64,000 nt of DNA from Hygrophila difformis (Eukaryota > Streptophyta > Magnoliopsida > Lamiales > Acanthaceae): contig JAOANR010000001.1 of assembly GCA_030278955.1 (NCBI GenBank), forward strand, positions 42,496,890 through 42,560,889, read 5' to 3'. Below the pieces are notes generated by a model. That model saw only the letters and a program-made list of their open reading frames with translations. It was not told the origin of the DNA and made no database searches. Within the stretch, counting starts at the first letter, position 1. Each line of letters begins with the position of its first letter. The position numbers were made by a program, and so were the translations under genes. Positions 14,026-37,168 of the stretch are shown piece after piece.

Positions 14026-14119
14026 GAAGTGTAACCCTAAGCCCATGGGCCTTGATTCTAGCCCATTGTGTCTTAAGACATCACACACATCACAGCTTTG
14101 TCTCGGAGCATCAAGTTGG

Positions 14120-16285: not shown

Positions 16286-18079
16286 TCAGGGCATGTATCG
16301 GAGCCAGAGGACACAGCTGGAAAGCTCACAACGTAGGCACCAATCGCGGTTTCTCAGAGGTGCATGCCATCTTGGGCAGTAGACTCTGACTCCTTGGCCT
16401 GCCCACAGTTGTGGGTTGTCTGGGTTGTCTGTTATCCAAGCGAGGACGTTGGTGGAAGTGTACCGAAAAACTGATCGATCTGTCACCATCCTGTCGATCA
16501 TTCTGATCCCCTGCTCAACTTGGCTTTCATCAGTCTTACTCATAAGCATCAATCCGCGGGTGAAGATTGACGTCTTATGGTTGTCCTCAAGTCCCGGGCG
16601 TAGCAGTTCACAAGCGCGCTCCTCATTCCCCTCTGCAAATGCCCTGAGTGCTGGGATGAGCTGAAGATTGAAGTTTCCTGCCGCTGTGCATATTCGCAGG
16701 AATCTCTCCTTCTGCCGATGGATCCTTACTTGCCATCTCTTCACAGTGGAGGTGTTAACCTCGCATCGCTTGTACACGATAGTAAGGTTTCCAGCATCCC
16801 TGAGCTTCTTGCATACACGTTGCGCGGCAAACACCTCCCTGATTTCATCCTCTCCTATCCGGGAGAGAATCTCGCCAAGGAGTTCGAGCGGTAGGTCCAG
16901 CAGCTTGGTTCCCTCTGGAGCAGGGTCTGGAATGGGAGGATTACCCCTGAAAAGATAGGAAGTGATGAATCCAATTTTTATGTAATTTTCGGAAATTATT
17001 CAAGTTCAGAAACCAACATCCTCACATTTAGAGCTTTGCTCTAGATGTGAGATTATTAAATTCCTGACTTGAATTTTAATTTAAAGCACATGCAAATAAT
17101 ATTTGGTTTTAAATGGGCTAAAGAGCCCAAAATAAAATAGAATTGGCCATTGGGCCTAAAATCTTTTTAATGGGCCATAGGGCCCAAAAGTTTTCAGTTT
17201 TATTAAACAAGTCCGAGACACTTGTTGGAAGTGGAATGAGATGGATAGATGGAAATGGAATGCTCGAATATTGGAATGTGCAATGGAGACGTGGCGGAAC
17301 GGATCTGCTGTTTCTGGATAGCTTGGACTGTTTGGACAGTTAAAGCATCCAAAAATTTGCAAACACTGTTTTTAATTTTTAAAAATGGTTGACTTGTTTT
17401 ATTTAACAAAGATGGGATGTGAGTGGTCCCATTTTGGATTTTTGAAAAGGATAGCAGTTGGGTGACAAAAGTACTGCTATCTTACTCACACTAGTGTTCC
17501 ATTGGGAACAAAAGACTCAAGTCAAACATTAAACAAAAATTACTCTTTTTGTCTTTTTCTAAAAGGTTGCTTTTATTAAAAGTGGAAGCTTCCTATTGGG
17601 TGTTTGTACTATGTTTCCGTAAACAAACAAACATTTATTCCCATGAGATTTCTAACATGGGGACAAATGTGCCCAAAGAGATCTTACCTCTTTTATTACA
17701 CCAACTCAACACTGTGCACATCACATCAGGATCAATCAAACCAACAACATCAAGATATTCAAAACAATACCCAAATGTTCATCAGTTTGTTCTTCCCAGT
17801 TTTAAACCTTCAAAAACTTATCCATTACCAGTTTCAAAATGGGGTTTCAGGCGTTTTAAAATGATGCTCATACCCGAGAGCACTTTGAAAACTTCCAAAA
17901 ATCTAAAGTTAAATGCATATATACACCACATCACACCAAGAACACAACAAAATAAAAACAAAACAAACGGGTCCGAATGGGTGCTATGAACATGGCGAAA
18001 ACAGGGTTTACCCTCTCCTCCTTGGCTCGGGTCTAGACACGGGTCCAAGGTTTGGGAGGAGTCCATGAAATCGGTCCAT
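16286..18079 (-). CDS. F-box protein gene of element C (two exons)
   Basis: Exon 1 is 18079-18012 and exon 2 is 16946-16286, separated by a 1065-nt intron. Exon 1 opens at the first ATG after a CT-rich leader (about 18080-18215) and a TATA-like GTATTTATAC at 18236-18227. It supplies 22 codons plus 2 nt, ends at G|GTAAAC, and the acceptor is TATCTTTTCAG|G, which restores the frame exactly. Exon 2 alone has no ATG before the F-box, so an upstream exon is required. The product would be about 242 aa. It has an F-box near residues 40-80 (LLDLPLELLGEILSRIG), a helical middle with AGNFNLQLIPALRAFAEGN and ELLRPGLEDNHKTSIF, and a C-terminal GQGVRVYC...H...CLRC motif. F-box proteins bind SKP1 in SCF ubiquitin ligases and choose substrates; the target is unknown. 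Architecture resembles Arabidopsis At1g67623-like F-box proteins. Splice sites are read by eye only. Confidence 0.75.
17021..17051. repeat. Intercistronic hairpin, element C copy 2
   Basis: Arms CTCACATTTAGAG (17021-17033) and CTCTAGATGTGAG (17039-17051) enclose a 5-nt loop. One position is G.U-compatible on the plus strand and mismatched on the sense strand. It lies in the F-box intron, 74 nt upstream of the acceptor at 16946, and its sense 3' side continues GATGTTGG. Confidence 0.8.
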
Positions 18080-18226
18080 AGTTTCCCCTTGGAAATGGAG
18101 TGCAAGAGTGCGAAGAACACGTGGTGTTCGTTCGGATGAGAGAAAAATGGGGGAAAAGAAGATGAAGAAGTTGGAGGAAGTTGAAATGACAAGAGAAAGT
18201 GAAAAGAAACTGGAGGGGGTGGGGGG

Positions 18227-18236
18227 GTATAAATAC
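18227..18236 (-). promoter_or_regulatory. TATA-like box of the F-box gene in element C
   Basis: GTATAAATAC on the plus strand (GTATTTATAC in sense) is close to symmetric, so the strand is not certain. It sits 8 nt from the nearest palindrome on its upstream side and about 150 nt before the exon 1 ATG, with a CT-rich leader between. Confidence 0.5.
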
Positions 18237-18243
18237 TTGAACT

Positions 18244-18556
18244 TTTGTCGCGGAATCCGAGACTTTGTCGCGGAACAAGGTTCCGCGACAAGGCATAGCG
18301 ACATCAGAGAGGTCGCGGGGTTGAGGGTTGGTCGCGGAGTCATGCTCCGCGACAAGGCTACCGCGACAAAGCTCAGTATGGGGACAGGGTCAACGCAGAT
18401 CATGTCGCAGAGCAGGGCTTGGTCGCGGAGTCATGCTCCGCGACAAGGTGCATCGCGACAATCAACGGAGAAGGGTTAAGAAGGAAAAGGGAGTTTGTTG
18501 CGGAACAGGGTCTGGTCGCGATGTATGACATCGCGACAAAAGACCTTCCGCGATAG
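18244..18556. promoter_or_regulatory. Palindrome cluster upstream of the F-box gene in element C
   Basis: TTGTCGCGGAAC with GTTCCGCGACAAGG (18262-18292), GGTCGCGGAG with CTCCGCGACAAGG (18330-18355 and 18421-18448), and further GTCGCGATG / ATCGCGACAAA sites. This is the motif family of this element's own LTRs, placed directly upstream of the internal TATA-like box, as in the LTR. Confidence 0.8.
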
Positions 18557-18913
18557 AGAATTTTTTGAATTTTCAAATTTTCTTGGACTGGGCCCGAGTG
18601 TGATGTTGGGCCTGAATCCATTTTATTTGATTTGGGCTAAATAAATTCAGTCCAAGTAAATTCAAAATGCTGGGCTGAAAATTAAACAATCCACTTGCAA
18701 AAATTAGGTTGGGTTAGTTCCATTTATCTGTGAATTTTGTTTCGGGTGTTGAATTTTTTCAATTCCCGAAAGCGTTTTCTTAGACTTATGGAACTAATCC
18801 AACCAAGAACCTGGTTTTCCATGTTACTCTTATCTGCTCCTCTTTTTGGGGGTTCCGAACTTCTGCAAGATAGATGAATGAAATGCATTAGATTTTCTCC
18901 AAATATCAACATC
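18557..18913 (-). other. Post-pol exon-like segment of element C
   Basis: In the sense direction a 3' splice-like site ATCTTGCAG ends at 18863, 52 nt after the hairpin at 18914. It is followed by sequence alignable with the segment after 47177 in element B (CCAAAAAGA, then CAGGTTC..GGTTGG). The short frames in it are not convincing genes. TGGGCC/TGGGCT motifs occur at 18588-18675. Confidence 0.45.
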
Positions 18914-18944
18914 CTCACATTTAGAGTCTTAGTACTCTAAATGT
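18914..18944. repeat. Intercistronic hairpin, element C copy 1 (after pol)
   Basis: Arms ACATTTAGAGT (18917-18927) and ACTCTAAATGT (18934-18944) enclose a 6-nt loop. The sense 3' side reads GTGAGGATGTTGATA, as at the PPT/LTR junction. It lies about 110 nt after the pol stop codon. Confidence 0.8.
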
Positions 18945-19053
18945 TTAATTGATCTTTGGGTACTTGCTCGTCATGAAATAAGTACTGTAAATATATAATA
19001 TATATATATATATATATATAAACTAAAATTTTTGTGTTTTTAAATGCTGTTTC

Positions 19054-22000
19054 TTATTGAGTGTAAGCCGGGTCTGCCACTGCTTGGCTTTCTTTCTCCG
19101 GATCGAACTGTCCAAGGTACTCTTTTAATCGTTGTCCATTCACCACTATATTGCCCCTATCAGTTCGGATCCTAACAGCTCCATTTTTTAACACCTCTAG
19201 TACTTCATGTGGTCCTTCCCATCTAGATTTGAGCTTTCCAGGGAACAGCTTCAACCTAGTATTGAACAATAACACATGTTGACCAACATAAAAATACTTA
19301 GGTTTGATCCGGCGATCGTGCAACTTCTGGGTCCGCTCCTTGTAAATTCGAGAGCTTTCATAAGCTTGCGCTCGTATTTCCTCAATTTCATTGAGGTCCA
19401 ACTTACGTTTGCTCTGAGCAACTTTCGGATCGAAGTTAAGCGTTTTAACGGCCCAGTAAGCTTTATGCTCTAGCTCTACGGGTAAATGACAGGCTTTTCC
19501 GAAGACCAGCCTATATGGAGACATCCCGATGGGAGTCTTATATGCTGTGCGGTATGCCCATAGAGCATCATTGAGCTTACGTGCCCAATCCTTACGGGTT
19601 ATCCCGACAGTGGCTTCGAGTATGTGTTTGATTTCGCGATTGGATACTTCGACTTGACCACTAGTCTGAGGATGGTAAGGCGTGCCTATCTTATGGAGGA
19701 TCCCATTTTTACTCATTAAAGTTTCAAAACCTTTATTAATAAAGTGTGTTCCTCCATCAGATATCACCACCCTAGGTACGCCAAATCGACTGAAAATGTT
19801 GTTCTTGAGGAACTTGATTACTTGGCTACCATCATTGGTCGGTAATGCGACAGCCTCGACCCATTTGGATACGTAATCGACAGCTACCAAGATATAGTAG
19901 TTTCCACCAGATGGTGGAAACGGTCCCATGAAGTCAATGCCCCATACATCAAAGATCTCAAGTGTGAGAATCCCCTTTTGAGGCATCTCATCCCTCTTGG
20001 AGATGTTTCCTAATCTTTGGCATCTGTCACAGCCCTTAACAAATGTCCTGCAATCCTCATAGATGTGAGGCCAATAAAATCCACATTCTAGGACCTTGTG
20101 GGCCGTTCGAGCGGGACCATGGTGACCTCCATATTCTGATTCATGGCATTTTCTGACAATTTGATAGGCTTCATGCTCGGTCACACATCGCCTGATTATT
20201 AAATCAGGGCAGTGTTTGAAGAGATAAGGTTCTTCCCAGAAGTAACTTAATACATCTCGTTTGAACTTATTCCTCTGATGATAGTTCGAAAACTGTGGGG
20301 TTACTCCGCATGCCAAGAAGTTAGCGATGTCGGAAAACCATGGACAAGCTTGATTATGCAGATGCAACGCGAACAACTGTTCGTCCGGGAAATCTTCATT
20401 GACGGCTTTTTCCTTTTTATCATTATCTAATCGAGATAAGTGGTCAGCAGCACCATTATCTCGACCTCGCCTATCTTTTATTATGATGTCGAATTCTTGC
20501 AACAGAAGTACCCACCTGATTAATCGAGGTTTTGCATCTTGTTTGCTAAACAAGTATCTCAATGCTGTATGATCGGTGTATACTATGGTCTTCGTACCTA
20601 TCAGGTACTGTCTGAACTTGTCAAACGCGAAGACTACAGCATACATCTCTTTCTCCGTTGTGGTGTAGTTAACTTGGGCTTCATTCAGGGCGTGACTTGC
20701 GTAATGAATTACGCAGTGTCTCCCATCCTTATGTTGTCCAAGAACTGCGCCTACGGCGAGACCACTGGCATCGCACATTACCTCGAAAGGCAGTGACCAA
20801 TCGGGTGGTTGCACTATCGGTGCAGAAACCAACATCTTCTTGAGCGTGTCAAAGGCTTGGACACACGCTTCATTTATTAAGAAAGGATTTTCTTTACAAA
20901 GCAGATTAGTGAGCGGCTTGGCAATTTTAGAGAAATCCTTAATGAATCGCCGGTAAAAACCGGCATGCCCTAAGAAGCTCCTAACTGATTTGATCGAGTT
21001 AGGAAGAGGGAGATTGGAAATGATGGGAACTTTGGCTGGATCAACTTCAATGCCTGCACGAGAAATGCGATGACCTAACACTATGCCCTCAGTGACCATA
21101 AAATGGCACTTTTCCCAATTTAAAACCAAGTTAGTGTCCTCACACCTCTTTAAAATCTTAGCAAGATTGGTCAAACAATCTTCGAACGTATCTCCATACA
21201 CAGAGAAGTCATCCATGAAGACCTCAATGCATTTTTCGATAAATTCAGAGAAAATAGACATCATGCATCTTTGAAAAGTAGCAGGTGCATTGCACAAACC
21301 AAAAGGCATCCGTCGATAGGCAAAAGTGCCGTACGGGCAAGTAAAGGTGGTTTTCTCATGGTCTTCACTGGAAATAACAATCTGATTATAACCAGAATAA
21401 CCGTCCAAAAAGCAATAAAACTCTCTCCCTGCCAACCTCTCAAGCATCTGATCAATGAATGGCAATGGAAAATGGTCCTTTCGTGTGGCCTCATTCAGCT
21501 TCCGGTAATCGATACAAACTCTCCATCCGGTCACTGGTCTGGTTGCAACCTCTTCTCCTTGCTCATTCTTGGTTATGCACATCCCTCCTCGTTTGGGTAC
21601 GACCTGCACCGGGCTAACCCATTTGCTATCAGAGATAGGATAGATTATACCAGCATCTAAGAGCTTGATAACTTCTTTCCTTAACACTTCCTGCATAAGG
21701 GGGTTCAATCGCCTCTGAGGTTGACGGGAGGGTTTAAACTCTTCTTCCATTAGAATCCTGTGCATGCAAATAGAAGGGCTTATTCCTTTTATATCAGAAA
21801 TGGTCCAACCTATTGCATGTACATGTTTCTTAAGAACGACCACCAGAGCATTTTCTTGCTCTTGGGAGAGCTTAGCCGAAACAATCACGGGTAACTTTTT
21901 ATGTTCTGCGAGAAACGCGTACTTGAGATGATCGGGTAGTGTTTTAAGTTCAAGCTCTGGTGGACATTCAACGGAAGGGAGTAGTTTGCGAGAATTGGGT

Positions 22001-25000
22001 AGTGGGAGAACAGATTTACCTTCGGGATCCTGCATCAGTACAGGATCCTCTTCCTCCTCTTGGTTGGCGTCATCATGGAAGTCGATGCCGTCAAATTCCT
22101 CCAAATCCCCTGTTTCGGGATCGGCGAAGTGAACGGCTTTGCATCCTTTGTGCTCCACGCCAGCAGGCTTCAGTACCTGCTTTGATGGTTCATCCAGCAT
22201 CATTTCACAATCAAGTTCAGAGTCAAGCTCTTCCCTAACTATTACATTTTCAAATGAAAAACAAGAACTGTCATTCGGAAATTTCTGCAATTTCTCCATA
22301 TCAAAGATGATCTCCTCGCCATCGACCCTTAAGGTGACTTTTCCGGATTTAGCGTCAATCAGTGCACCACCAGTGGCTAGAAATGGGCGTCCAAGGATAA
22401 GCGGCATTTCAGAATCCTCTTCAATGTCGAGGATGATGAAGTCGACCGGGAAAAGAACCTGCCCGGTTTTGACTACAACATCCTTAAGGATTCCTACGGG
22501 CTGAGTGATCGATCTGTCTGCAAGTTGCAGTCTCATCTTGACCGGTTGAATTTCTCCAAGCTTAAGGCGAACAACCATAGCTAGTGGCATCACGTTGATG
22601 CTTGATCCTAGATCACAAAGCCCCATACTCACTTTGGCCTTTCCGAATTGTACTGGAAGTGTGCAACATCCGGGGTCTTCTTTCTTTTCAGGCATTCTCC
22701 TCTGAACGATGGCACTGCATGTGCTGTTGAGAATAATTACCTCTTCCTGCTCAACCTGCCTTTTTCCTGAAATCAATTCTTTCAAGAACTTAGCATAGAT
22801 GGGCATTTCGGAAATCATTTCTGTGAGAGGAATGGTTATCTCTACAGACTTTAATCGTTGCAGAAATTTCTTGAATTTAAGATCATGTTCTTTATTTTTA
22901 AGCCGCGCAGGATAAGGAATCCTGGGCATGTACTTATTATTAGCAATTTTTGGTGGTGAAGGGAAGGAAGTTGTACCTTCACCTGTACCCTTATCTGTTT
23001 CAGCCATTTCAGGCGCAGCTTCAGTCTGCAATTCGGCTGTCTCTTTTTCCACTTCGTTCCCATTATCAGCTTCCTTACCAGCATTGTCAACAATATCATC
23101 TTCTTCAAATTCCGCTCCAGTATCTGCTCCCTTTGGTCCAGCTAGTACTCTTCCGGATTTCAAGGTTATTGCCTTGCATTGCGGGTTCTTTTCCGCAGTA
23201 CTAGGCAATGTTCCTTTGTCCCTTTTCTGCATCTCGTTAGCCATCTGTGTAACTTGGGTCTCCACATTTCTGATGGAGGCCTGCAGTTGATTGTTGATCT
23301 CTTTCTGACTAGTGATGAAATCAGTCATCAGATTCTCAAGCCTTGAAGGAGGCTTTTGATTCTGATTCTGATTTTGATGCTGATTCTGATTCCACTGGCC
23401 TTGGTTTGGGACAAACTGAGGCTGGAAACTCTGATTGGGCTGAAAGTTCTGGAAATTCTGAGGCGGCCTTTGCTGGATCTGAGGTTGGAAACCTGGATTC
23501 TGAAAATGTTGGCCCCTGTTCTGATTGAATCCCTGATTCTGCTGAGGGTTGAACTGCTGTTGTGGCTTATTCAAGAGATGTGAATTCAGGGCGTTGTTGT
23601 TTGAGTAAGACAAATTCGGGTGTCTATTTGGAAAGGCTCCTGCATAGTTACAGCTCTCAGCTGTGACTTGCTCGCATGTGTCAGTTGCATGAGCACCTTG
23701 ACACAGTCCACAGATCACATCAGTTTGCTGTCCCTGCGCAGAACTTCCAACTCCTTGATTTACAGACAACGCTGCCACTTGCTCTTGAAGCCTTTCAATG
23801 TCTGACTTCTCTACTGTACCTACAGCACATAAACTACGAGGGGGAGTGAGATTACCATCATCAGTTAGAACAGAACGGTTTACACTCATGGCTTCAATCT
23901 TTGCCCAGGCTTGGTCCATCGGTATGTAGAGTAAATGTTGACCACCAGCAGCATCAAGCATGGATTTCCATGATGGGGTCAGACCACTGTAGAACTTTCT
24001 CAGTCTCTCCCAGTCATGGAAGCCATGTTGAGGACACTTTCTGAGTAGGTTGAAGAATCTTTCCTTTGCATCATACAAGGACTCGTCTGGTTTCATCTTG
24101 AATTCCGCAATTTTGGAGCGGCATTCATCCACCTTGGACTCCGGGAAGTATTTTGCTAGGAAGTTTCTGATCACATCTTCCCATGTAGACTTCTGATTTA
24201 CGGGCAGTGACTTGTACCATGTTCGTGCTCCGCTTGTCAGAGAGAAGGGGAATAGCCTTAGTCGAATAGTGTTTGCGGGTACATAACGATTCTTGATCGT
24301 GTCACACAATTCTAGGAAGGTTTGCAGGTGATCATGGGGATCTTCATGACTTGCTCCGGCAAACTGGTTGCTCTGGACTAGATTGATCAGGGCCGGTTTC
24401 AGTTCGAAATTCCTGGCCAAGAATGGAGCTTGTCCAGGAATGTTCAGATATGGCTCTAAAATCGGCTGCATGTAATCAGCAGCAGCTGCTGCTTGATGAT
24501 TGTTCTCAGGCCCGCCTTGGTACTGCTGTGGGTAGTAGTTCTGAGGCATGAAATAGTTCCTCGGATCATTGAAATCATTCGGATTCGGGGGATTCTGATG
24601 GGGGTTATGGTATTGCTGATTCTGTTGGTTTGGGAAATTTTGTTGATTTGGTTGGTTTTGGTTGTTTGGTGGGTTTTGGTTCGGGTTGGGAGGGGGTGCC
24701 TCGAAGTGCTGCTGCTCCATGTTTGGTGGATTCCCACCTCCTTGTATGATCTGGGGAGGGGGATCATCCAAATCATCATGATCAGCATCTTCGGGGTCTT
24801 CCTCAATGTTGTGAAGTGGGGGATTGGGTTGAATGATTGGTGGAATGTCAGGGTTTGCCATCTCGGAAATATCGCTGCTAGTGCTTGGCAAAAGTAGTGC
24901 CTGTCGTTCCCGTTCCCTTCTTCGTTTAGTCTCCGCCCTAAGACGTCGAGCTGTCTTTTCTATCTCTGAATTAAACGGGATCTCGGCTGGCGTCTGCTTC

Positions 25001-25011
25001 CTCCTTTGCAT
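19054..25011 (-). CDS. gag-pol: Gag-Pol polyprotein of element C (Athila type)
   Basis: One uninterrupted frame of 1985 aa from ATG at 25011. Gag: capsid-like region about residues 200-380 ([26 protein letters not shown]), then a zinc knuckle [13 protein letters not shown] near 432 with C-x2-C-x3-H-x4-C spacing, one residue shorter than the usual x4, as I know it from Athila Gag. A Gln/Asn-rich linker follows. Aspartic protease: [10 protein letters not shown] near 798, LILGRPFL downstream. Reverse transcriptase: about 1040-1330, with [11 protein letters not shown] and the catalytic FMDD near 1264. RNase H: from CDASG near 1412 through YTDH. Integrase: H-H-C-C zinc region near 1620-1660 (GGHHGPA, CDRCQ), catalytic D in GIDFMGPF near 1690, D in SDGGTHF near 1750, E in VSNREI near 1787. 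All catalytic residues I can check are present. The PBS is 144 nt upstream. No separate frames, so Gag to Pol ratio control is not evident. Confidence 0.95.
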
Positions 25012-25154
25012 AGAACAACGGCTTCAATAATGACAGTACCTGTACAATCCCCAGGTTAGAAGTGGTTCTGAATGTGAATATTTATAATTATATGTATAGG
25101 CTAATCTAGGAGCAATGAGGAATGTAATTCTCTAAATAAAACGGCGCTGCATCC

Positions 25155-25172
25155 TCCCCGGCAACGGCGCCA
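25155..25172 (-). promoter_or_regulatory. Primer-binding site of element C (tRNA-Asp)
   Basis: The plus strand reads TCCCCGGCAACGGCGCCA directly against the LTR TG at 25173. This equals the 3' end of plant tRNA-Asp(GUC) including CCA, so the sense RNA is complementary to it. tRNA-Asp priming is typical of Athila elements. Confidence 0.93.
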
Positions 25173-28022
25173 TGAAACTTTTGACAATTTCCGTCCCACG
25201 AGCTTCTTCTAAAATATACCAGGTTAGATTTATTAAATGAAAAGCGTTATGATTCACGGGAAAGGGTTTAGGGATACATCAAGATTATTAGTCTTTTTAT
25301 TACTCAAGTATGGTGCGTTGGTTTCAAATGGCACTGTGGTCCTCTCTGTCATGGAATGTTGACAAATCTCATGGCATAGCCGGGATAGGTTGACCTTCAG
25401 CCTGTCACACTGAGGATCCCCGGCAGATATGCCATGATACTTCTCATTAATTCTTGCCATAAGAGTTCCTGCCATGAAACTTTTTGACAGATTCCCACTA
25501 CATGAGTATTTTCCGAAAAATCATGATCCTGGTTTAGGTTTTATTTAATGAAACCAATTTATGATGGCGGTGTTGTGATTAGGGATATATTTATACGTAG
25601 CCATGTTTTTATTGCTCGTGTTTAAGAAACTGTGCCCCTGAAAGCGCACGGTGTCAAAAATTGCAGTAATTTATAGTAAGACCGGATCGTTCACTGGAGG
25701 ATGTGCGATAGAAGCAGGTCCCACGTCGTTTTACTAGATTTTCCATTCGTATTGCTCAATAGGTTTGAAAGATAATTAGTTCCTACTAACATGAATTTAA
25801 ACTAGATCTCGAAAGCAGTTAAATTAATCTACAAAGCAAATAAATCTATTCTAGAGAGCGGATAAGAATTATTCTAGGAATGCAGTAAACATTATCTACG
25901 AAAGCAGGGAAAAGGTGCATTGTGCCAACCGTGAAGCTGAATCACAATGTAGACAGAAGGGACAGGAAGAAAAGAATGAAAATTGGACAAGATTGAGATA
26001 AAGCAATATTAAACTTCCATTTTTATACACAGATCTTTGTTTGGGATAATTCTATCAGATAGCTAATTCTCATGCTCTCAATAAGGCTTTCCTTTTAACA
26101 GACAGGTACTTGCAATATGAGTTTACATGTTCTTAAGACCGCAAATTCTAAGATACCACAGATTCGTAACACCCGACACATCATTTATTGAAATGCCAAG
26201 TACCACTATCATTCTCCCATGTCACACCCAAAGATTTGAATTCAGCCCTAAACTATCCCTTAACTGTCAATCCTAGTAGCAGTTACACAACTCTCAATAC
26301 AACCGAGTGACCTCTAATGAAAGCGGTTAAAAGAAAGCGGTAAAGAAAGCATTTAAACCTATCACTCGGAGGTTTTGAAAATCTGACCCTGGTAGTAAAA
26401 GACAGCTCCCCATCAGGATGAAGGAGTATGGATCAAGAATTCCCGGCTCTCAGTGAACCACTAGTGTGTTCACTTCCTTCCGGGTGATTATGAGACACAA
26501 ACTAATGAAACGAACTAATAAATTAGTTCGTTCCGGATGCACTCACTCAGGACTCAAAAGTAGGCTTTGGCAGAAGAGGATAGCAGTTGAAAGAAAACTC
26601 AACCCTATCTTGGAAAATAACCAAGGCCTGGATGATGTTCCTCTAAGATTATTTACTACACTGTATTTGAATCCAAGTGGACCCCATCTCGGTGTAGGAC
26701 TTAATCTTACATTTCCATCAACCAGCAATTTTGGAAAATAATGGATTTGAAAATCATTCCCTGTCAGGTACTAGACTCTCAGTTAAAACACAGACCCTTT
26801 CAGTCTAGGCGAGACCTAATCGCTGAATCTGCTTCTAATTTCCCAAAATACAACCCTTGACAGAATATGAATTAGTCATAACTGAAGAATTTATCCCTTA
26901 CTCAGATCCGGATTTTATAAAGAGGTTTTTGTTGGAAATTTATAAAGCAATATCTGTTTAAGATCTAGACTTCTATTGTCCAAGGGACCCAAAATAAGTA
27001 CAGACCACAACAGTATATAATATTATCATGCATAAAGATATATGGAAGTGTAAAATTAATTGACCCAAAATATAAATGCGGGTCTAAACAGAAGGTGAAA
27101 CACAGAATGAAGTGGTCAAGGGACCAAAGTAATGGCAGAATAATCAGGTGGACTGTAAACATCTACTGTCCAATTTCCCAATCACTCGGATGGAGCGAAT
27201 TTAGACAGCTTAGACCCTATAATGGTGGTGTCAACACCAGTTGGGCCTCCACTGTCTGTGAATTCGGATAAAAACCTACATGCTTCCCTTCTATAATGAT
27301 CATCAGTTGGCATTGACTGATGCCAACTGACTCCCAGTACGGATGGGGATTCAGGTTTGGAAATTAAGATAATAAAAATAAAACTGTATCTGGATGGGAG
27401 TCAGCCGAGCAGCTATTATAACCCCGGATGGGCGAACCGCCAAGGCTTCCACTGACAGCTATCCAGACCATGCAAAATAACAATTAGTAACTAATACCCA
27501 GAATACGAGCTAGTTATCCATGAGGGAGTACCCGCCAACATTAGTCTGATGTATTCTTTACTAATGGTTCCACACAACACACAAAGACAAAATAAATAAG
27601 AAACAAAAAAAGATCCCTTATATGAGAGACATTGGTTTCTCATGCAAGGTTGTGGATTGGGTCCACAATTGATGGTCTTAAATAATCCTTCCTACCATAA
27701 TTAATTACAGTCCAGATTATCTGTTTAAGCCATCGAGATTTTGTTTATACAAGAATGTTTTAATGGCAATTGAACAAAGGTCCTTTAGTCATGATGATTA
27801 TTGAAGTTTGATTATTGCTAATCTCAATCTTTAATCATTAATGAGTCAAGGGTTCAATCAGTTAAGTGATGCAAATGGAGAATCAAAATTTGGGCAGCAT
27901 AACACCCTATATTGCAATTCCAGAATGTTACATCCTAACCCGTGGGGCTATGATGTGAGTGTTGCAACATAAAATAGGGAGAGAATGAAGTTTGTTTGAG
28001 ATTAAATAGAGGGAGAGGAACC

Positions 28023-28582
28023 CTTGTCGCGATATCATAAATTTTGTCGCGGACCGAGATCCGCGACATGGACATCCCGACAAGTTTTTAGAATTTTTGG
28101 CAGCATAACGCCTCTTTGTCGCTATGCAAGATTTTGTCGCGGAACGTGGTTCCGCGACAAGGGTGACATCGCGACAAAGTGTTTTCAGAAAATTCCTAAA
28201 GCATTTGAACCCTTGTCGCTATGCATGGAAATTTTGTCGCGGAACGTGGTTCCGCGACAAGGTGTTCCGCGACAAGGTGTTCAAAGATCAAGGAACATGG
28301 CATAATTTTTCTGTCTCAGAATGGGATTTTGTCGCGGAACGTGGCTCCGCGACAAGATGATTCCGCGACAAAAAGCCATGAAGACAAAATGCAAGAGTTT
28401 GGCTCCTTTGTCGCTATGCATGGACAGTTTTGTCGCGGAACGTGGCTCCGCGACAAGGTATTCCGCGACAAAAGGGTTTTAAATTATGGAGACAAGTGTC
28501 TTGAAACACCTTGGTCGCGTAACAGCCATTTTGTCGCGGAACGTGGTTCCGCGCCAGAAGGCGGTTGGCGACCAAGGTGGTT
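28023..28582. repeat. GTCGCGGAAC palindrome cluster, leader side of 5' LTR C
   Basis: The same six-unit array as 12822-13380, nearly identical. One visible change is GGCGACCAAGG here against GGCGCCCAAGG in the other LTR. Confidence 0.85.
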
Positions 28583-29217
28583 CAGGACAAAAGTCAGAAA
28601 AAGCAGAAATGAACAGTGGCATGCAAACAGCGTGATCTCACCCTATTTCAGATCAAAAAGCTATTCTAAGCTAAAAATAAGCAAGAAACATTCAAAATAA
28701 AGAAGAACATGCTTAAACAAAAAAAAATAACAAGGATGGGCAGAATATTAAAATAAAGCAGGAGTCCTAATCTAGGGTTTGATCACACATCCACACAACA
28801 TTATCCATAATATGCCAACAGTAAACATAAAAATAACAAAATGGGGGTCAAATGACCCCAAAATGAAAAAGAAAGCATAAATCCATGGGGTGTGAGACCC
28901 ATTTCATGATTTGGGACACAAATGATGAATGTTTTCCCATATTATTGAAGAGGTATTGTTAATACCCATGATTTGGGTATTACAAACCCTAAAACAAGAG
29001 TTTAGAAACCAAAACATAGTATAAAAATGGCTATCTAAGCAACTGTGAACAGTAAAAACACTAAACTAAGCTAAACTAAGAGCAAAAATTAAATAATACA
29101 TGAAAATAAACCTAAACTACTCTACCTAAGGAAAAACTCCTAAGCTTGCCTGCAAGAGCTCTACAACAATTTCAATCTCTACTGGCCAACCAACCCTTAG
29201 CTCATGGGAGACACCTC

Positions 29218-29226
29218 ATATTTATA
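29218..29226 (-). promoter_or_regulatory. Core promoter of element C (5' LTR)
   Basis: The sense TATAAATAT box has site II (AGCCCATGGGCC) and telo-box-like AACCCTAA just upstream (29232-29276). The leader to gag would be about 4.2 kb including the palindrome array, unless spliced. Confidence 0.75.
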
Positions 29227-29319
29227 GAAGTGTAACCCTAAGCCCATGGGCCTTGATTCTAGCCCATTGTGTCTTAAGACATCACACACATCACAGCTTT
29301 GTCTCGGAGCATCAAGTTG

Positions 29320-29541
29320 GTCGCGGAACACACTGCATGTGGCAAGGCTTCTCGACTGGGTCTTGTGTCTCTATTTGTGCATCTTGGTCGCGGAACATGC
29401 CTTTGTCGCGGAGCATGCCATCGCGACAAAGGTCATCGCGCCAAGGGGCTTGGCTGGTCTCCTCTTCATTTGGGCCACTTGGTCGCGGAACATGTCTTTG
29501 TCGCGGAGCACTGCATCGCGCCAAGGGGCTTCCGCGACAAA
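29320..29541. promoter_or_regulatory. Palindrome cluster upstream of the 5' LTR C TATA box
   Basis: The same sites as 14120-14340. They end about 95 bp upstream of the TATA box in the sense direction. Confidence 0.75.
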
Positions 29542-29846
29542 GGTCTTCCTGGGCCTGCTGGATTGGGCCAGATGGGCCGAAAATATTCTTTTTGTGAGCT
29601 TTTCTATCTTTTTCCCATCTTTTTGTTTCCTTTTCTTTTTCTCATGTTTTTGGATTTTTCTAACATAAATATGTAATAAAATTACATATTTATGTCTTTT
29701 TCACACCAGCTTATTATTTTTACAATTATGCATAAATTAGTCCAATTCGACTGCTTTCTTACTTAATGTAAGACCGGAATGCGATCAAATGCCCGTTTAA
29801 GACACGGAAATGGATTGAAAATAATGGTCATTTTTGGCCATTATCA

Positions 29847-30373
29847 CAGGGAGTGCCTGCTGAGCATCATAGACTCTAGCATTTCGAATTTCATTAAGTT
29901 TGCAGCAATATTTGGTGAGTCGCTTCACATATTTTGGTAGTGGTTGAGGATCAAAGTAATCTAACTCCAACCCTGTCTGATCTTTTGGATTGATAATTCT
30001 GTAGCACTCCTGATTCCACTCAGCCATGCACTTCCTTTCCCTTTCCAAAAGTCTTTCCAGTCTGATTTCATTAGGCAGATGCCTATCATTGATCAGAATT
30101 ATCATTTGATCATCCCAAAATCTATTCATCTTATTCCAGAATGCTTCTTCTAAATCAATCCTCAATGATTCATTTTCCTTATCTGGTATATGTTGAAGCA
30201 TAAATGGATTGATATAAAAGTCTGGAGGTGAAATTTGCATTGCTGTCCATCCACCACTTCTCCGAATAGTTTCTACCATGTTAACCGTTCTCGTCTTTAC
30301 CAAAAATGATTTCTCTTTCTTATCCGATTCTATATTTCGAGCTTGAAGTTCTTCATAGGTCATCTTATGAATC
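29847..30373 (-). pseudogene. Env-position gene of element A, N-terminal part (5' side of element C)
   Basis: Acceptor-like TTTCTTAAG|G puts the exon start at 30373; the first ATG is at 30363 in the same frame. About 170 codons remain before element C interrupts. The protein begins MTYEELQARNIE, is Arg/Lys/Glu rich, and has no signal peptide or membrane helix. Two intercistronic hairpins lie 41 and 140 nt upstream of the acceptor. The acceptor phase (one base completing a codon) matches the F-box acceptors upstream in element A, so splicing from an upstream leader exon is possible. The last residues before 29847 run into the LTR of C and are not native. Confidence 0.7.
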
Positions 30374-30413
30374 CTTAAGAAATAAGAACAACTGGTAAAT
30401 TAGTGTCACCATA

Positions 30414-30442
30414 CTCACATTTAGAGCTTGACTCTAAATGTG
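30414..30442. repeat. Intercistronic hairpin, element A copy 2
   Basis: Arms CTCACATTTAGAG and CTCTAAATGTG (last pairs interrupted by TGCAG) lie 41 nt upstream of the env-position acceptor. The sense 3' side is GAGTATGGTGAC, like the PPT/LTR junction of element A (GAGGATGGTGAT). Confidence 0.75.
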
Positions 30443-30512
30443 CAGATGATAAAAAAAACATAATACCAGATTTCCTTTTTATATTCATCATTCTATTCAT
30501 GATATCACCATA

Positions 30513-30541
30513 CTCACATTTAGAGATTTGCTCTAAATGTG
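30513..30541. repeat. Intercistronic hairpin, element A copy 1
   Basis: Arms CTCACATTTAGAG (30513-30525) and CTCTAAATGTGA (30531-30541 onward) enclose a 5-nt loop. The sense 3' side is GAGTATGGTGAT. It is in tandem with the copy at 30414, with 70 nt between. Confidence 0.8.
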
Positions 30542-30694
30542 AAGATTTCAATGCTAACTGAGTCTAATTTAATCAGAAAATAGCAGGAAATTCGAATTCA
30601 AAACATCATTAATCAAAAGCAAAACATATAATCCATCAGATTCAAAATATGGAACTACAAAGCATAGTGTTTCTTATGACATTCAACCTATCAA

Positions 30695-31442
30695 TTACAA
30701 ATGAGGAGGTGTCTCTGCCTCAATTCCAAATCTGAGAAACAGATTACAATGCTCAGAGACTAAGCACCTCATACAGTAAATTGACACGACTCCATAGGTA
30801 TTCCTTGAAGGACCATGATTGTTATCATAATAGCTCCTAAGGTCACAAAGTCTCTTCTTGGGTTGTCCTTGAAAGGGTGAGATAAATTCCTCATAACTCG
30901 ATAACCACCCTCTGACTTGAAGTCGAAGATCCTTGAGTCTTCGTCTATTCTTGCACAGAGGAGCGAAGAGCCAAATTCCCTTCTCTTGCTCTTCCCTTTC
31001 ATCCTTACTTAAGAGCATAAGAGCTTTTACATAGATGGATGGGGGGTGATTATCAGTAATTGCAGGTTTTAAGAGTTCAAATGCTGCTTGTTCATTCTTG
31101 TCTTTAACGAACAAACACAATGCCTCATGTAACTGGTACATCCAATTTCCTGCATTTTTGCAGGTTTCAAGGAAAACGCTTTGTGTCTCTTCAAAAGTTC
31201 CCCATCCCCATGCTGTAAAGTCTTCAAGAGAAGCCTTTTTCAAGACCAAAGGATGATGAGTAGCTTTTTCGAGCTCTTTGCAGACTAGTTTACAATTAAA
31301 GACAGTCTCAAGGTGGTCAAATGCCAATCTTGATAAAATGTTTCCAAGAATCTCATAAGGAAGATCTGTGATCTGAGTTTCCCCCGATCCAGATTTCTTT
31401 ATTGAAGTCCTTGGTTGCTTTGATGAAGTTCCAATTTCATAG
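30695..31442 (-). CDS. F-box unit 5 of element A (3' exon only)
   Basis: The exon starts after acceptor TTATTCAG at 31442 and runs to the stop at 30695, giving 248 aa plus whatever first exon is used. I find no ATG-plus-donor exon between units 4 and 5; the only in-frame ATG before the F-box is in intron-like sequence. F-box: TQITDLPYEILGNILSRLAFDHLETVFNCKLVCKEL. The middle carries AGNWMYQLHEALCLFVKDKN, ELLKPAITDNHPPSIYVKALMLLS. The C-terminus has GQPKKRLC, a His, and YCMRC. Likely an SCF substrate receptor of the At1g67623-like type; substrate unknown. The acceptor phase fits the short first exons at 35295 or 33462. It may be an alternative last exon, or a unit that lost its first exon. Confidence 0.7.
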
Positions 31443-31602
31443 CTGAATAAGGTTAAAAACAAAAATAGAATTAAAAGCTAGAGAATGCAATTCATTAATG
31501 GAAAAGGGATGTACAGTTTTGAATCATCCACATAATTCTCTGTCCCAAGACAAAAACACAAAAGATACAAGCAAAGAAACTATCAATCACTTGATTTCTA
31601 GA

Positions 31603-32356
31603 TTATTCTAATTCTAGTAGTTCTTCTTCATTCTGATCTTCTTCTCCATTGTTCCATTGCTCCCATTCAAATAATATGCCTAGTTCGCCACTTGCTCTTC
31701 TGTATTGCTTGACATAATCAAACAGTTCACAGGGAATACACTCCATCCTTTCATTAAAAGGTAATTGCTGTCGCTCTTGGATAGAGTGATTCTTACAAAA
31801 ACTCCTTTCCTCTTGATCAAGGAATGGGTTTGGGAACTTTTCACCATAAAGGAGCCAGTGGAGAACACTCATTTTTAAGAATAGAAGTTCAAAAGGATCT
31901 TGAGTCACAGATTTGATCAATTGAATTCCTTCCTCATCCAGCTGCGGATCTTGTTTGGAAAGCAGTAGAAAGGATCTTATGAAAGTGGTTGGTTTGTGTT
32001 TATCATCTAATCCGGGCTTAAGAATTTCATAAGCTTTTTCCTCATTTTTATCCTCGACAAAGGCTATCAATGCAGGCACAATATTAAACATATAATTGCC
32101 TGCATCCTGACATCTTTTAATGAATCTGACTTGGTTACTTGGGTAAGCATCTCCTCTCCAAATAGCACAAGTTTCCAAATTAGCTCTCTTTAGAGCTAAC
32201 GATGATCTGCTTGCTGAGAGGAATTGCTTAGAAGTTTCGGACGCTCTAAAAAGTGCCTTTATGCTTTCCATTCCTAGTCTTGACAGAATGTCTCCCAGTA
32301 ACTCAATTGGTAAATCAAGTATTTGAGTTTCCAAGAGTTGAGGGTTTTCGACATTT
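31603..32356 (-). CDS. F-box unit 4 of element A (3' exon only)
   Basis: A strong acceptor CTTTTCTTTTCAG ends at 32357; 250 aa follow to the stop at 31603. An internal ATG (32334) directly precedes the F-box, so translation from an unspliced RNA is also possible. F-box: TQILDLPIELLGDILSRLGMESIKALFRASETSKQF. The middle has AGNYMFNIVPALIAFVEDKNEEKAYEILKPGLDDKHKPT. The C-terminus has DQEERSFCKNH and MECIPCELFDYV, then an acidic tail. Closest within the window to unit 2 by shared stretches. No private promoter or first exon is visible in the 194 bp separating it from unit 3. Confidence 0.72.
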
Positions 32357-32550
32357 CTGAAAAGAAAAGGAGAAAAAAAAACACAGAATTAAGAGTTAAA
32401 CTCAACATTTATGCAGTAATGAGATTAGATTTTATTATCAAATTTAGGCTGCATTACATTGTACAAAAGATCTGATCTAGTGACAGTTTCAAAGTCAAAA
32501 ATTAGAAGACATGTCACATGCATCAATCTCTTTCTCCCTTGTCCAAAAGC

Positions 32551-33462
32551 TTATTCATTAATGCTATAATTGTCATAGTTCTCCCCTGCTGCCATCCTAA
32601 AATCAGCTATGGCTCTTTTCGTGTCACAGCAGAGATAGCAGACCTGATCGGCTGTATAGTATGATGGCCTATGGAAGGTTTCCTGATCATGAACTTCTAT
32701 AACACAGAATTCCCTATTTTTCTGCCCTAAAAATGGATTCGGGACATATTCCCATTCTGAAATTAGGGTGAGAAGATTATATCTAAACTCATAACTGTTT
32801 AATCTATCACTTAAGATTGGATTAATTAAGCGAAGTCCAGCATCTATCTCTTCTCTAGAACTTTTACTTAAACAGCATAAAGCTTTAAAATATTGAGAAA
32901 TCTTGAAGTTATCTTCTATTCCTTCATCCAGGATCTGAAATGCCTTGAATCCTTTCCCTTGTGTAAACAGTTCCAAAGCCTTGGGTAAGTTCAGAATATG
33001 ATTCTTAGCCTCTCTACAGGCATGTAGAAACTTGATTTTACCAGTGGATTCATTAGAGATTCTTTTAAAGGCCGGATCCTCTACATTAAATCTCCGGAGA
33101 ACAATAGGATATTCTGAGACTATTGTAAATGTTGAACAGATTTGTTTGCACTTGAGCAGATCTTCAAAGCTGCTCTGCCCTACTCGTGACAGAATCTCCC
33201 CAAGGACATCCAATGGAAGATCAGTCAGGTGTAAAGCAGAGGACTCAGAAGGCTGCTCCTCACTGTTATTTAATCGAATTTTAAAGAAGAAAGATCAGTT
33301 GAAATTATACTCCAAGTTTCAATTAGGGAAAAACGAGAGTGGATGAAAAACTTTAACCCTTGTATGAGTAAAAACATTATAATGCAGAATGTAACAACTT
33401 GAAACATCAGGAAGAAATGCGATGAAAAATGAACGGAGAGCTTACGGGTTGTTGCTCGCCAT
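32551..33462 (-). CDS. F-box unit 3 of element A (two exons)
   Basis: Exon 1 is 33462-33446 (17 nt, ATG to CC|GTAAGC). Exon 2 starts after TTAAATAACAG at 33262 and ends at 32551. The join is in frame and predicts 242 aa. F-box near residues 18-58 (LHLTDLPLDVLGEILSRVG, CKQICSTF). The middle has AKNHILNLPKALELFTQGKG, ILDEGIEDNFKISQYFKALCCLS; the C-terminus GQKNREFC, His, CYLCC. It has a private promoter (TATATAA near 33606-33615 with a site II TGGGCT beside it) and a leader of about 150 nt. It is the last unit with its own first exon, so units 4, 5 and the env-position gene could be alternative 3' exons of this transcript. SCF role is family knowledge; substrate unknown. Confidence 0.78.
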
Positions 33463-33605
33463 TAGGATTGTTCCTGAAGCTGAGTGTTTCTGAAGAAGGG
33501 TTTCGCAATAGAGGAAGAAGAAGAACTTAGAAATGGCGGTTTCTTCTCGAGAGAGAATATGAAAAGGTATGAAAATGATTTGAAAAGATAAGGAGGTTAT
33601 AGGTC

Positions 33606-33615
33606 TTATATAAAA
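33606..33615 (-). promoter_or_regulatory. TATA box of F-box unit 3
   Basis: The sense strand reads GTTTTATATAAGACC, with AATGGGCTGGCC (site II) about 10 bp upstream. A single half site AAAGCGAGG of the element A palindrome family lies further upstream near 33780. Confidence 0.65.
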
Positions 33616-34203
33616 CAATGGGCTGGCCTAGTTAAAGAATAAAGAGTAGGGTACTCAAGTATTTAGAGTGTACTCACTCATTCTAGACCTGCCACATCAG
33701 TGAGTCTGGTTATTGATTTAAAAATTGAGTTAATGGACTCAAACAACATAAATTGGATAAAATTAGATCGGTTGAAAACAAAGCGAGGGGTAATCATTGA
33801 AAAGGATTAAGACTTCTAAATTGTATATTAAGTCTGGTTAAATCTTCTTCACCAAATTCATCTTAATGCATAACAAAAATCTACCCTTAACTTATTTATT
33901 TAAAGATTACCAATTCTTCCATCTCATTTCCTGATTTTACTTCCTCTTTTAATCTGAAGAATATTCAGTGGAGTGTTTGATCTAAGTTTCCTCTGATCCA
34001 AACTCCCTTAATAACATTCTCAGTTTTAAGAGAAACTTCCAGTTTCATCTTTAATTCATGTTTGAATTGAGTAAAGAAACTGATCATACAAAATAGAAAG
34101 TAGGAGAATTGTAATACATGAAGTCCAAATGATCCAAAATACATCAGAATATCCAGGAATTACAAACATATATAATACTATAGAATTTTCTAGCTCTAAC
34201 TGC
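33616..34203 (-). other. Spacer between F-box units 2 and 3
   Basis: AT-rich, no gene seen. It includes the 3' untranslated region of unit 2 and the upstream region of unit 3. Confidence 0.6.
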
Positions 34204-35295
34204 TCAGGGGTCAATTTCCTCATCATCGGAGTCGGTCCACATAAACTCATCAGGAAACACTTCACCACAATACAGTCTAAACTGCCTCACCATGTCAAAG
34301 AATTGACAAGGGATACAGTCCATCCTGATGTGTGGTGGTAGTAAGACTCGAACCTGCAAAGTATGATCCTTACAGTAGCTCATCTCTGGTTGCCCTTGAA
34401 AAGGATTTGGGATTTTAGGAATATGGGTGAACCAATGAAAAAGATAGATTTTGATGAAAACCACTTCTAAAACATTAGAAGCTACTGTTTGGACCAACTC
34501 TAATCCTTCTTCAATCCACTTATCCTCTTGTTTTGTTAATAGGAGCATCGTTCTGAGCAGAATAGTAGGTTCATGCCCATCATCTAGTCCTGGCTTGAGG
34601 ATTTCATATACCTTCTTCTCATCTCTTTCCTCCACAAATGCCTTTAATGCAGGTTCAATGTTGAACATGAAGTTCCCTGCATTTTGACACTCTCGAATGA
34701 ATCTTTTCTGGTTGTCCGGATAAACGTCTTCTCTCCATCTCATACACGATTCCAAGTCCACTCTCTTGTATACAAGATGAGTTTTGCTTGCTTGGTAAAA
34801 TGATGGAGAGACTTCTGCTATCCTGAAGAGCTCTCTAACATTGTCTTTTCCAATTCTTGATAGAATATCCCCCAACAACTCAGTGGGTAAATGGGATATT
34901 TGAGTTGCGGTGCGCTGTGGATTCCTAGCATTTCTGTTTCCAGAAAATAATATGATAAGAATACAGGGGAATACTTTTATGATGGAACCAAAATTTTCGA
35001 AATGGAGGTTTCATTCCTAATATGAAGCTCCAAAGTCTTATATGGATAATGCATCGGTTACAAACTAAAGATTTCAGAAAAGACTCTCTGGATTAATGAG
35101 TGTAAAGAAACGGCTCTTAGTTATGAGGAATCTTAAATGATTAATGTTTCCGTTTTCTACAGCCATTCCCTGAAAAATATAGAATCATGAACCCTAGGTC
35201 TAGAAATGCAATCCGACAACAAACTTTGCAAAATAGAACTAAAAATAAAAGAAAGAAAGGATGAACGAGATTGCTTACGGATTGTTCTCGGCCAT
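34204..35295 (-). CDS. F-box unit 2 of element A (two exons)
   Basis: Exon 1 is 35295-35279 (17 nt, ATG to CC|GTAAGC), and exon 2 starts after GGAAACAG at 34933 and ends at 34204. The 345-nt intron has plant-like AT content. Joined product 248 aa. F-box: TQISHLPTELLGDILSRIGKDNVRELFRIAEVSPSF. The middle has AGNFMFNIEPALKAFVEERDEKKVYEILKPGLDDGHEPT; the C-terminus GQPEMSYCKDH, MDCIPCQFFDMV, then acidic SDDEE. The exon 1 peptide differs from unit 3 by two residues. Expected to act as an SCF substrate receptor in nucleus or cytosol; no localisation signal is evident. Confidence 0.8.
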
Positions 35296-35452
35296 TTTCT
35301 TCGTCGATAGGTTTTTCGAATGATCTTGCTTATGAGAATGGTTGAGAATGATAAAAATGGTGTATGGCGATTTCTTCTTGAATAAGAGAAGGAAATCTGA
35401 TGAAAATTTTTGAAATGACAACTGAGAGGAATGACTGCAAGGACAGAGACGC

Positions 35453-35463
35453 CTATTTTTATC
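35453..35463 (-). promoter_or_regulatory. Possible TATA box of F-box unit 2
   Basis: The sense strand reads TTAGATAAAAATAGGC, a weak TATA-like site 160 bp before the ATG at 35295. One half site GAAGCGAGG lies near 35620. Confidence 0.4.
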
Positions 35464-35692
35464 TAAGGACTGCAGGGGTCTAGATAGTAAATCTTGTCTC
35501 TGCAGGGAGTAATGATTAAGCCTAAAATAACCCTATTTTGAAAATTTTATTTAAAAAGACAGATAAAAATCTAATGTAAAGGATAAGATCAATCAAGTTG
35601 TTTCCTTTTAATAAAAATGAAGCGAGGAGTATATATATAGCAACACCAAAGGGCTTAGAATTTAGATACAAATTAAGAGATTACATAATCGA

Positions 35693-36433
35693 TCAATTTG
35701 AATCTGAATCAGTTTCTAATTCTGACTCAGATTCAATTACATGCTCATTAAAATTTTCTCTTAATCTCCTAATTAAACTAGTAACCTCACAACACAAACA
35801 ATCAATGTTTGTGCCACCATAGTTAAAGTGTGGAGGTTCCCTAACTAAGTCCCTACTATGTGGCGCTAAATAGTCACAGTACTCGCGATGTCCTTGTCCC
35901 CTAAAGGGATTAGGCTCTTCTTCGCTTTCATTGAATAACTTGCTGATCTTCGCCTCAATCTTGCGAATATGATCTTCATCTTTAAGGATTGATCCGAGAA
36001 GATACAATCCCTCATCAATTTCCTCAAGGCTCTCCGAACTCAAAAGAATGAAGGCCTTGATAAAGATTGAGGGGTGATGGTTATCATCGATTCCAGGCTT
36101 AAGGACTTCAAAAGCGGCTTCCTTGAGCCCTGTATTGCAGAATCTCGAGAGTGCAGGTTCTAATTTCAGCATGAAATTTCCCGCCTCTCTGCATCTTCGA
36201 AGTATTTGGACATAATGAGAGTCAAGTGTCCTCTCTGCAGTCATCCGCCTCTCCACATTTGCCCTCCTCATTACTACAGGCGCCATACTTGCTCTGGCGA
36301 ACTTTTTGCAAGTTGGGGCTAACCTGGCTACATCCTTCATTTCTTCTCTTCCCAACCTTGAGAGAATATCTCCCAAGATTTCATCAGGAATGTCTAGAAT
36401 GGATGTTCTAGCATTTGGAGCTGCTGCGGCCAT
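35693..36433 (-). CDS. F-box unit 1 of element A (intronless)
   Basis: A 246-aa frame from ATG 36433. It needs no intron: MAAAAP is followed at once by NARTS, the exact place where units 2 and 3 carry their intron (P, then NAR in unit 2). F-box: SILDIPDEILGDILSRLGRE, LAPTCKKFARAS at residues about 11-52. The middle has AGNFMLKLEPALSRF, VLKPGIDDNHHPSIFIKAFILLS; the C-terminus GQGHREYC, His, DCLCCE; and an acidic Glu/Ser/Asp tail. A TATA box is 82 bp upstream and a palindrome cluster lies beyond it. It is the first F-box unit after pol. Intron loss through reverse transcription of a spliced RNA is a reasonable explanation. Confidence 0.85.
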   Translation of the reverse strand: MAAAAPNARTSILDIPDEILGDILSRLGREEMKDVARLAPTCKKFARASMAPVVMRRANVERRMTAERTLDSHYVQILRRCREAGNFMLKLEPALSRFCNTGLKEAAFEVLKPGIDDNHHPSIFIKAFILLSSESLEEIDEGLYLLGSILKDEDHIRKIEAKISKLFNESEEEPNPFRGQGHREYCDYLAPHSRDLVREPPHFNYGGTNIDCLCCEVTSLIRRLRENFNEHVIESESELETDSDSN

Positions 36434-36514
36434 TCTGACTTTTGATAATGGTTTTAGGATAATTTCTTAGGGTGGAAAATGTTTGAGATGAAAGAAGAGG
36501 AGGATTCGACTAGA

Positions 36515-36521
36515 TTTTATA
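36515..36521 (-). promoter_or_regulatory. TATA box of F-box unit 1
   Basis: The sense strand reads CTGCTATAAAATCTAG, 82 bp before the ATG at 36433. Confidence 0.7.
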
Positions 36522-36660
36522 GCAGAAAAACTAAATTCTGCCATAATTACTGGCGGTTGAAACGACGTGTGATGGTTGGTGTAAGAGAAGAAGAAGAGTC
36601 TGAAAAGGGTATTTTGGTCTTTGAGAAGTTTGAAAATCTATCCGTTCAAAATTCCCAGAC

Positions 36661-36940: not shown

Positions 36941-37168
36941 GGATCCATTCATACTTCATTTTTCAAACACTTAATACTCAAAAACCTGTTTGAAGATTCT
37001 TGTCTCATCCTCCTCCATTCCATCACAGCTTCATTTCTCGAATTCCTGAAAATAAAGAATAAAAGAATTAGAGATGAAAAATGAATCTAAAGAAAAGGGA
37101 AATACTACTCAGTTAACCTGGGTAGTATCCACCCCCCTATTTTTTTTTTTTTTAAAGAAAACAGAAAA

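Follow-up and report, generated by a model that had tools for sequence, protein, structure and literature searches.

Two nested Athila-type long terminal repeat (LTR) retrotransposons in a 64,000-nucleotide stretch of Hygrophila difformis DNA (contig JAOANR010000001.1; hereafter the window) carry F-box genes: five in the outer element, A, and one in element C, which is inserted in A. We suggest, with confidence that stands about even, that these are kept accessory genes of the F-box/TPR_27 family that act as SCF receptors, placed downstream of pol in sense orientation in both elements. The integrases of A and C are 70% identical, and both elements carry F-box genes after pol in the same sense, which we count for this reading. 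LTR-like repeats upstream of the genes and a low ratio of non-synonymous to synonymous change (dN/dS) between units A2 and A4 favour function, and the evidence as a whole favours kept accessory genes over accidental cargo.

F-box units and the elements that carry them

The five units of A (trimmed exons of 237-251 amino acids) lie on the minus strand at 30695-36433, between the integrase stop (37169) and the env-position open reading frames (ORFs), and the single unit of C (220 amino acids) lies at 16286-16948, behind the gag-pol stop (19054) and before the 3' LTR, which ends at 14645 (Table 1). An initial annotation had proposed both placements; coordinates, Pfam matches and open frames agree with it. 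All six frames are open, and among 5000 nucleotide shuffles of each unit none stayed open for any of the five A units and two did for C1. Every unit matched PF00646, PF12937 and PF23310 (TPR_27) at E<=1. The curated F-box cut-off was passed by five units, A1, A2, A5 and C1 through PF00646 and A4 through PF12937 (24.9 against 24.3); A3 fell below both (17.1 against 20.5 for PF00646, 18.0 against 24.3 for PF12937). The TPR_27 cut-off (27) was passed by A1, A2 and C1. Because all six match both F-box and TPR_27 models, we assign them, on this profile evidence, to a little-studied plant F-box/TPR_27 family. Of the common plan that the annotation had described, the F-box and the helical, TPR-type middle fit the Pfam matches; the C-terminal Cys/His motif holds in part, with two Cys invariant and no His invariant. 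In blastp all 15 pairs of units matched, at 24.7-52.7% identity (best E per pair 1e-91 to 1e-23). tblastn of the window revealed no credible further F-box copy, the remaining matches being short with E of at least 0.02, and structure searches gave no more than weak matches to SKP1-bound F-box chains.

The window holds three nested Athila-like elements, with B and C inside A and all genes on the minus strand. Each has TG..CA ends, a perfect 5-bp target-site duplication (TSD) and near-identical LTRs, the pair of A differing at 15 of 3330 positions (99.55% identity) and that of C at 11 of 4674 aligned positions (99.76% identity). B, which has a short internal region with neither F-box gene nor pol, sits in pol of A; C interrupts the env-position ORF X of A. 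Removing A in silico rejoins one arm of a foldback element; aligned through the junction with the other arm, the rejoined arm agrees at 91.2% over 443 columns. At the B site, as at the C site, a single reading frame runs through uninterrupted. Because of this rejoined empty site and these open frames, it is very unlikely that the order of the elements is an assembly join, the outcome that the initial annotation had named as fatal to its reading; its claim that the genes are inside elements with perfect duplications (CCGAC for A, CAGGG for C) stands on the same evidence. In layout (TG..CA ends, 5-bp TSD, integrase after RNase H) C is a complete Athila-type element, A is internally deleted and B lacks pol. 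A primer-site-like TGGCGCCGTTGCCGGGGA adjoins the 5' LTR in A, B and C alike, and this sequence may be tied to tRNA-Asp and Athila.

B is a relative of C. It matches C on either side of the F-box exon, at 46690-46764 against 16996-17073 (a hairpin block) and at 45051-46622 against 14436-15956; the stretch between these matches measures ~1,040 bases in C, where it contains the F-box, and ~68 bases in B. Because B matches both sides of the C F-box yet is without the gene, either the line of C acquired the gene or that of B has lost it.

Gene structure and upstream repeats

An ATG precedes the F-box in A5 only, and the other five ORFs would require a leader exon. All six units have CAG just before the F-box, in the same phase, with one base left to the codon boundary; the CAG of A5 stands right at its ATG without a pyrimidine-rich tract, and the tract of A3 is weak (0.39 pyrimidine). 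Candidate leader exons were predicted for A4, A3 and C1, each in a phase that fits its acceptor, and the same spacers hold further phase-fitting short ORFs with weaker donors (one in C, one before A3 and three before A5). In the gaps before A2 (~190 bases) and A1 (~160 bases) no phase-fitting leader candidate was found; the arrangement suggests that any use of A2 and A1 involves splicing from a leader further upstream, for instance the one predicted for A3. Because the same-phase CAG is present in all six units and candidate leaders in three, the predicted acceptors and leaders speak against the units being intronless retrocopies.

Half-palindromes of LTR type lie upstream of both F-box blocks. 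GTCGCGG/CCGCGAC sites number 20 in the C LTR, 20 in the B LTR and 9 in the spacer between pol and F-box of C; CGCTTTG/CAAAGCG sites number 4 in the A LTR, 5 in the 735-base spacer before A5 and 2 in the A F-box array (one in the A4-A3 spacer, one in A1). Each motif is absent from the other 11 of the 14 regions, and the counts expected from first-order chains (100 shuffles per region) were at most ~0.5 in any region; the motifs were chosen by eye, which leaves the LTR count as the independent part in the case of A. By blastn the C spacer matched the C and B LTRs over 18-67 bases at 74-100%, and the A spacer had no match to the A LTR at E<=0.01. For the C spacer, the number of 9-mers shared with the C LTR was reached by 0 of 100 shuffles, that shared with the B LTR likewise by 0, and that shared with the A LTR by 28; for the A5 spacer the number shared with the A LTR was reached by 1 of 100, and there was no excess with the C LTR or with the flank. 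On these counts the case for LTR-type repeats ahead of the F-box block is strong in C and fair in A, there at the front of the array only.

Arrays of the GTCGCGG palindrome also stand within the C and B LTRs (12816-13354, 28018-28556, 41131-41699 and 50857-51425), those of B being built of units of ~96/192 bases.

Selection, base composition and relatives

Between A2 and A4, omega under GY94 was 0.137 (0.04-0.21 over 40 bootstraps), a fit 42.5 log units better than omega 1; another alignment gave 0.154, 39.3 log units better. This is selection on the proteins since the A2-A4 split, and it does not imply action inside the element. Four further GY94 pairs gave omega of 0-0.086 at 7.5 or more changes per codon, which is saturated, and were not used; the GY94 fit of integrase between A and C was likewise saturated. 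NG86 gave dN/dS of 0.30-0.53 (synonymous divergence, dS, 1.6-3.0) for five of the 15 pairs; the remaining 10, A2-A4 included, yielded no dS value.

The observed/expected CpG ratio was 0.63 both in C1 and in C gag-pol. For A it was 0.39 in the F-box array, 0.24 in gag-RT, 0.10 in the integrase, 0.29 in the ORF X part, 0.18 in ORF Y and 0.78 in the LTR, and in the flanks 0.75 and 1.21. The CpG level of the F-box genes leans towards that of the element that carries them. Within A itself there is an odd split, its own genes (5645-9910, 37169-38374 and 53931-55689) being strongly depleted of CpG (0.10-0.29) and its LTR not.

The collections searched for relatives probably hold few plants, and misses in them carry little weight. 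In the protein database, unit A2 drew 318 candidates with none at E<=0.001, and the six-unit alignment 2778 with none at E<=0.01. The F-box alignment gave 32 pattern matches in viral_contigs and 25 in genome_contigs, and in viral_contigs the A integrase gave 19 and the A+C integrase alignment 10, none of them confirmed. A sequence search of the PDB returned four matches up to E 10, none credible (best 0.16), and PADLOC with A5 returned no match.

Accessory genes or cargo

If the units are kept accessory genes acting as SCF receptors, the F-box genes would have been taken up from host DNA together with an intron and would have ended up downstream of control repeats similar to those in the LTR of the element. 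Expression would be driven from these LTR-like repeats upstream, with splicing from a short leader exon; A2 and A1 would perhaps be reached from the A3 leader, as alternative 3' splice sites. The F-box would join the units to host SKP1/cullin-1, and the TPR/Cys part would hold a host protein, leading to a degradation that benefits the element. Among possible actions of the units, SCF-type breakdown of a host protein is the most likely. By analogy with polerovirus P0 one may fairly guess at a silencing factor as the target, but no result obtained here supports a silencing or restriction factor in that place.

Several observations weigh against this reading. B is a relative of C without the F-box gene, and no second copy of element A or C was seen. 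The gag-pol of A is internally deleted, with a partial gag and no RVT_1. Because the synonymous divergence of A2 and A4 is ~2.9 changes per site, the selection may be older than the capture, and nearly all other pairs are saturated. In A as in C, GC content at third codon positions is higher in every F-box unit than in the pol of the same element. The similarity of C1 to any A unit does not exceed that among most of the A units themselves, and because of this the A and C units may possibly stem from two separate captures. As for the upstream repeats, the C spacer also has a smaller 9-mer excess with the right flank (2 of 100 shuffles), the spacer before A5 shares an excess of 9-mers with the B LTR as well (0 of 100), and the spacers before A4 and A3 have no 9-mer excess with the A LTR (the count was reached by 91 and 21 of 100 shuffles).

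The strongest competitor, which we consider quite possible if somewhat short of probable, is that chance capture took up a stretch of a host tandem F-box array (in A) and a single host F-box gene (in C), which the elements then carried through one or a few rounds of movement, the low dN/dS reflecting their past as host genes. The gene-like build with predicted leaders, introns and TATA-like sites would follow, as would the ancient divergence of the A units and the lack of the gene in B; the insertions are recent, as the LTR identities show, leaving no time for decay, and plant LTR elements are well known to capture genes (PMC3726574, accessible text). Chance capture sits poorly, however, with two elements independently affected in the same zone after pol and in the same sense, with LTR-type repeats before the block in each, with two A units that have an acceptor but no leader found, and with CpG levels that lean towards each carrying element.

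A more elaborate form of the accessory-gene reading, which we regard as unlikely, would make the block a counter-defence kit. In it, an internal control region of LTR type would serve a leader that is joined by splicing to one F-box acceptor or another, much as in retroviral accessory genes, and the several receptors would deliver restriction or silencing factors of the host to the proteasome.

Some F-box proteins do not form ligases, and the genes might be kept without any ubiquitin action, the units binding SKP1 for stability or assembly or serving as decoys or structural helpers. For one polerovirus P0 the part of SKP1 binding in AGO1 loss is described as unclear, and SKP1 stabilises P0 (from the accessible text of PMC6593998); A3, moreover, falls below both F-box cut-offs. 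An F-box joined to a protein-binding repeat is nevertheless the usual layout of a receptor, and we hold a role outside ubiquitin action to be improbable. That the F-box genes entered A and C after the elements had inserted, or that their order is an assembly error, would fit the single copy seen of each element but is barely credible given the perfect TSDs, the rejoined empty site of A, the frames open across the B and C sites, the same zone in two elements, and a repeat search in which the F-box blocks proved not to be flanked by long inverted repeats.

Other features of the window

A is inserted in one arm of the foldback element (1131-1273 and 59025-59972), whose arms are ~440 bases long and 91% alike. 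A large internal deletion has joined the gag of A in frame to RNase H and leaves one 556-amino-acid open frame (53907-55577); this fusion matched positions 2-54 of the 97 of the gag profile and RT_RNaseH, and did not match RVT_1. The second part of ORF X (8759-9910) had no Pfam match at E<=1. The left LTR of B contains a 1,046-base insert (42557-43602) that its right LTR is without.

A hairpin with stems of 11-13 bp (CACATTTAGAG..CTCTAAATGTGAGGATG) occurs in seven copies in the internal spacers of A, B and C, and the five of these that were folded gave z of -3.2 to -6.8. Its 3' arm is also the sequence adjoining each 3' LTR (4600-4620, 14641-14660 and 45255-45274). The hairpins may be duplicated 3'-end junctions (polypurine tract/LTR) that mark where blocks of extra genes were added.

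Table 1. Coordinates of elements, genes and repeats in the window
Feature	Position	Strand	Remarks
Element A (holds B and C)	1274..59019	-	LTRs 1274-4603, 55690-59019; TSD CCGAC at 1269-1273, 59020-59024
Element B	38375..53925	-	LTRs 38375-45259 (with insert), 48101-53925; internal 45260-48100; TSD GAGTC
Element C	9921..29846	-	LTRs 9921-14645, 25173-29846; TSD CAGGG at 9916-9920, 29847-29851
A gag fused to later part of pol	53907..55577	-	In-frame internal deletion; A's own part ends 53931
A integrase, 3' end of pol	37169..38374	-	PF00665, PF17921
A F-box unit A5	35693..36433	-	Own ATG; TATA-like site at 36521, 88 bases upstream
A candidate leader exon of A4	35279..35295	-	MAENN, donor GTAAGC; predicted only
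A F-box unit A4, exon 2	34204..34933	-	Pfam and splice-phase search
A candidate leader exon of A3	33446..33462	-	MASNN, donor GTAAGC; TATA-like site at 33613, ~151 bases upstream of ATG; predicted only
A F-box unit A3, exon 2	32551..33262	-	Below Pfam cut-offs
A F-box unit A2, exon with acceptor	31603..32356	-	No leader found in gap before unit
A F-box unit A1, exon with acceptor	30695..31442	-	No leader found in gap before unit
A env-position ORF X, first part	29852..30363	-	Interrupted by C; one open frame across site to 8759-9920
A env-position ORF X, second part	8759..9920	-	Open-frame continuity
A env-position ORF Y	5645..8704	-	1019 amino acids; PF20167 Transposase_32
C gag-pol	19054..25011	-	One 1985-amino-acid open frame; gag, RVT_1, RNase H, integrase
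C candidate leader exon of C1	18012..18079	-	22 codons; TATA-like site at 18235, 156 bases upstream of ATG; predicted only
C F-box unit C1, exon 2	16286..16946	-	Pfam and splice-phase search
Five CGCTTTG/CAAAGCG half-palindromes upstream of A5	36706..36915	.	Common to A LTR; motif count
Nine GTCGCGG/CCGCGAC half-palindromes upstream of C1	18247..18444	.	Common to C and B LTRs; motif count
Hairpin copies, A	30502-30546, 30403-30447		
Hairpin copies, B	47931-47978, 47220-47264, 46703-46744		
Hairpin copies, C	18903-18950, 17010-17054		

Comparison with known systems

A and C resemble the plant LTR retrotransposons with extra ORFs (Athila, Bagy-2, SIRE, Grande, Retand and Ogre), which are long, have large LTRs and carry sense ORFs after pol whose function is open; the domains named for these, in the accessible text of the sources, are env-like, plant mobile domain, Transposase_28, Athila ORF-1 and SMC, with no F-box among them (PMC7264820, PMC6317226). 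Extra ORFs of gypsy elements fall into 314 groups, and known domains occur in 21.4% of extra-ORF proteins, according to the accessible text of PMC6317226. F-box cargo is not described in the accessible text of the review PMC7264820, and the term F-box is absent from the main texts, as accessible, of PMC6317226, PMC3726574 and the 2026 review PMC13317346. F-box genes as a new cargo class of plant LTR elements, as the initial annotation had proposed, are consistent with this literature, no F-box cargo in Athila having been found in a search that left outside it the supplementary domain list of PMC6317226; such cargo may have been tabulated before.

Like cases of gene capture by plant LTR elements, A and C hold host-type genes (PMC3726574 and PMC13317346, in their accessible text), and in Thlaspi one LTR-gene of the F-box family is mentioned in the accessible part of PMC8764390. 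Unlike those cases, A and C have predicted introns, five genes in one element, genes in two elements, and LTR-type repeats upstream. Plant F-box/TPR_27 proteins (PF23310; At2g35280/At1g67623 type) have an F-box followed by TPR_27 and are similar in length to the units; these are hardly described host genes, a literature search having listed one paper that names At2g35280 or At1g67623, whereas the units here are borne by elements.

VANC of the VANDAL transposons is a plant transposon's own gene set against host silencing and tied to short element motifs, as the accessible parts of the sources have it (PMC10398659, PMC5735166, PMC13317346); unlike A and C, VANDAL is a DNA transposon and has no F-box, and the likeness is one of functional analogy only. 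Polerovirus P0, like our units, has an F-box-like motif in the protein of a plant parasite (PMC6593998, accessible text), but it is viral, and the likeness is again by analogy.

The roles of sense extra genes in plant LTR elements remain unclear in the accessible text of the 2020 review (PMC7264820). If kept by selection, the F-box genes, with their predictable biochemistry, would offer a direct handle through the proteins that they bind. Retroviral accessory proteins redirect host ubiquitin ligases. If our reading of kept accessory genes is true, A and C would provide a plant parallel to them, one that bears on the spread of plant F-box families.

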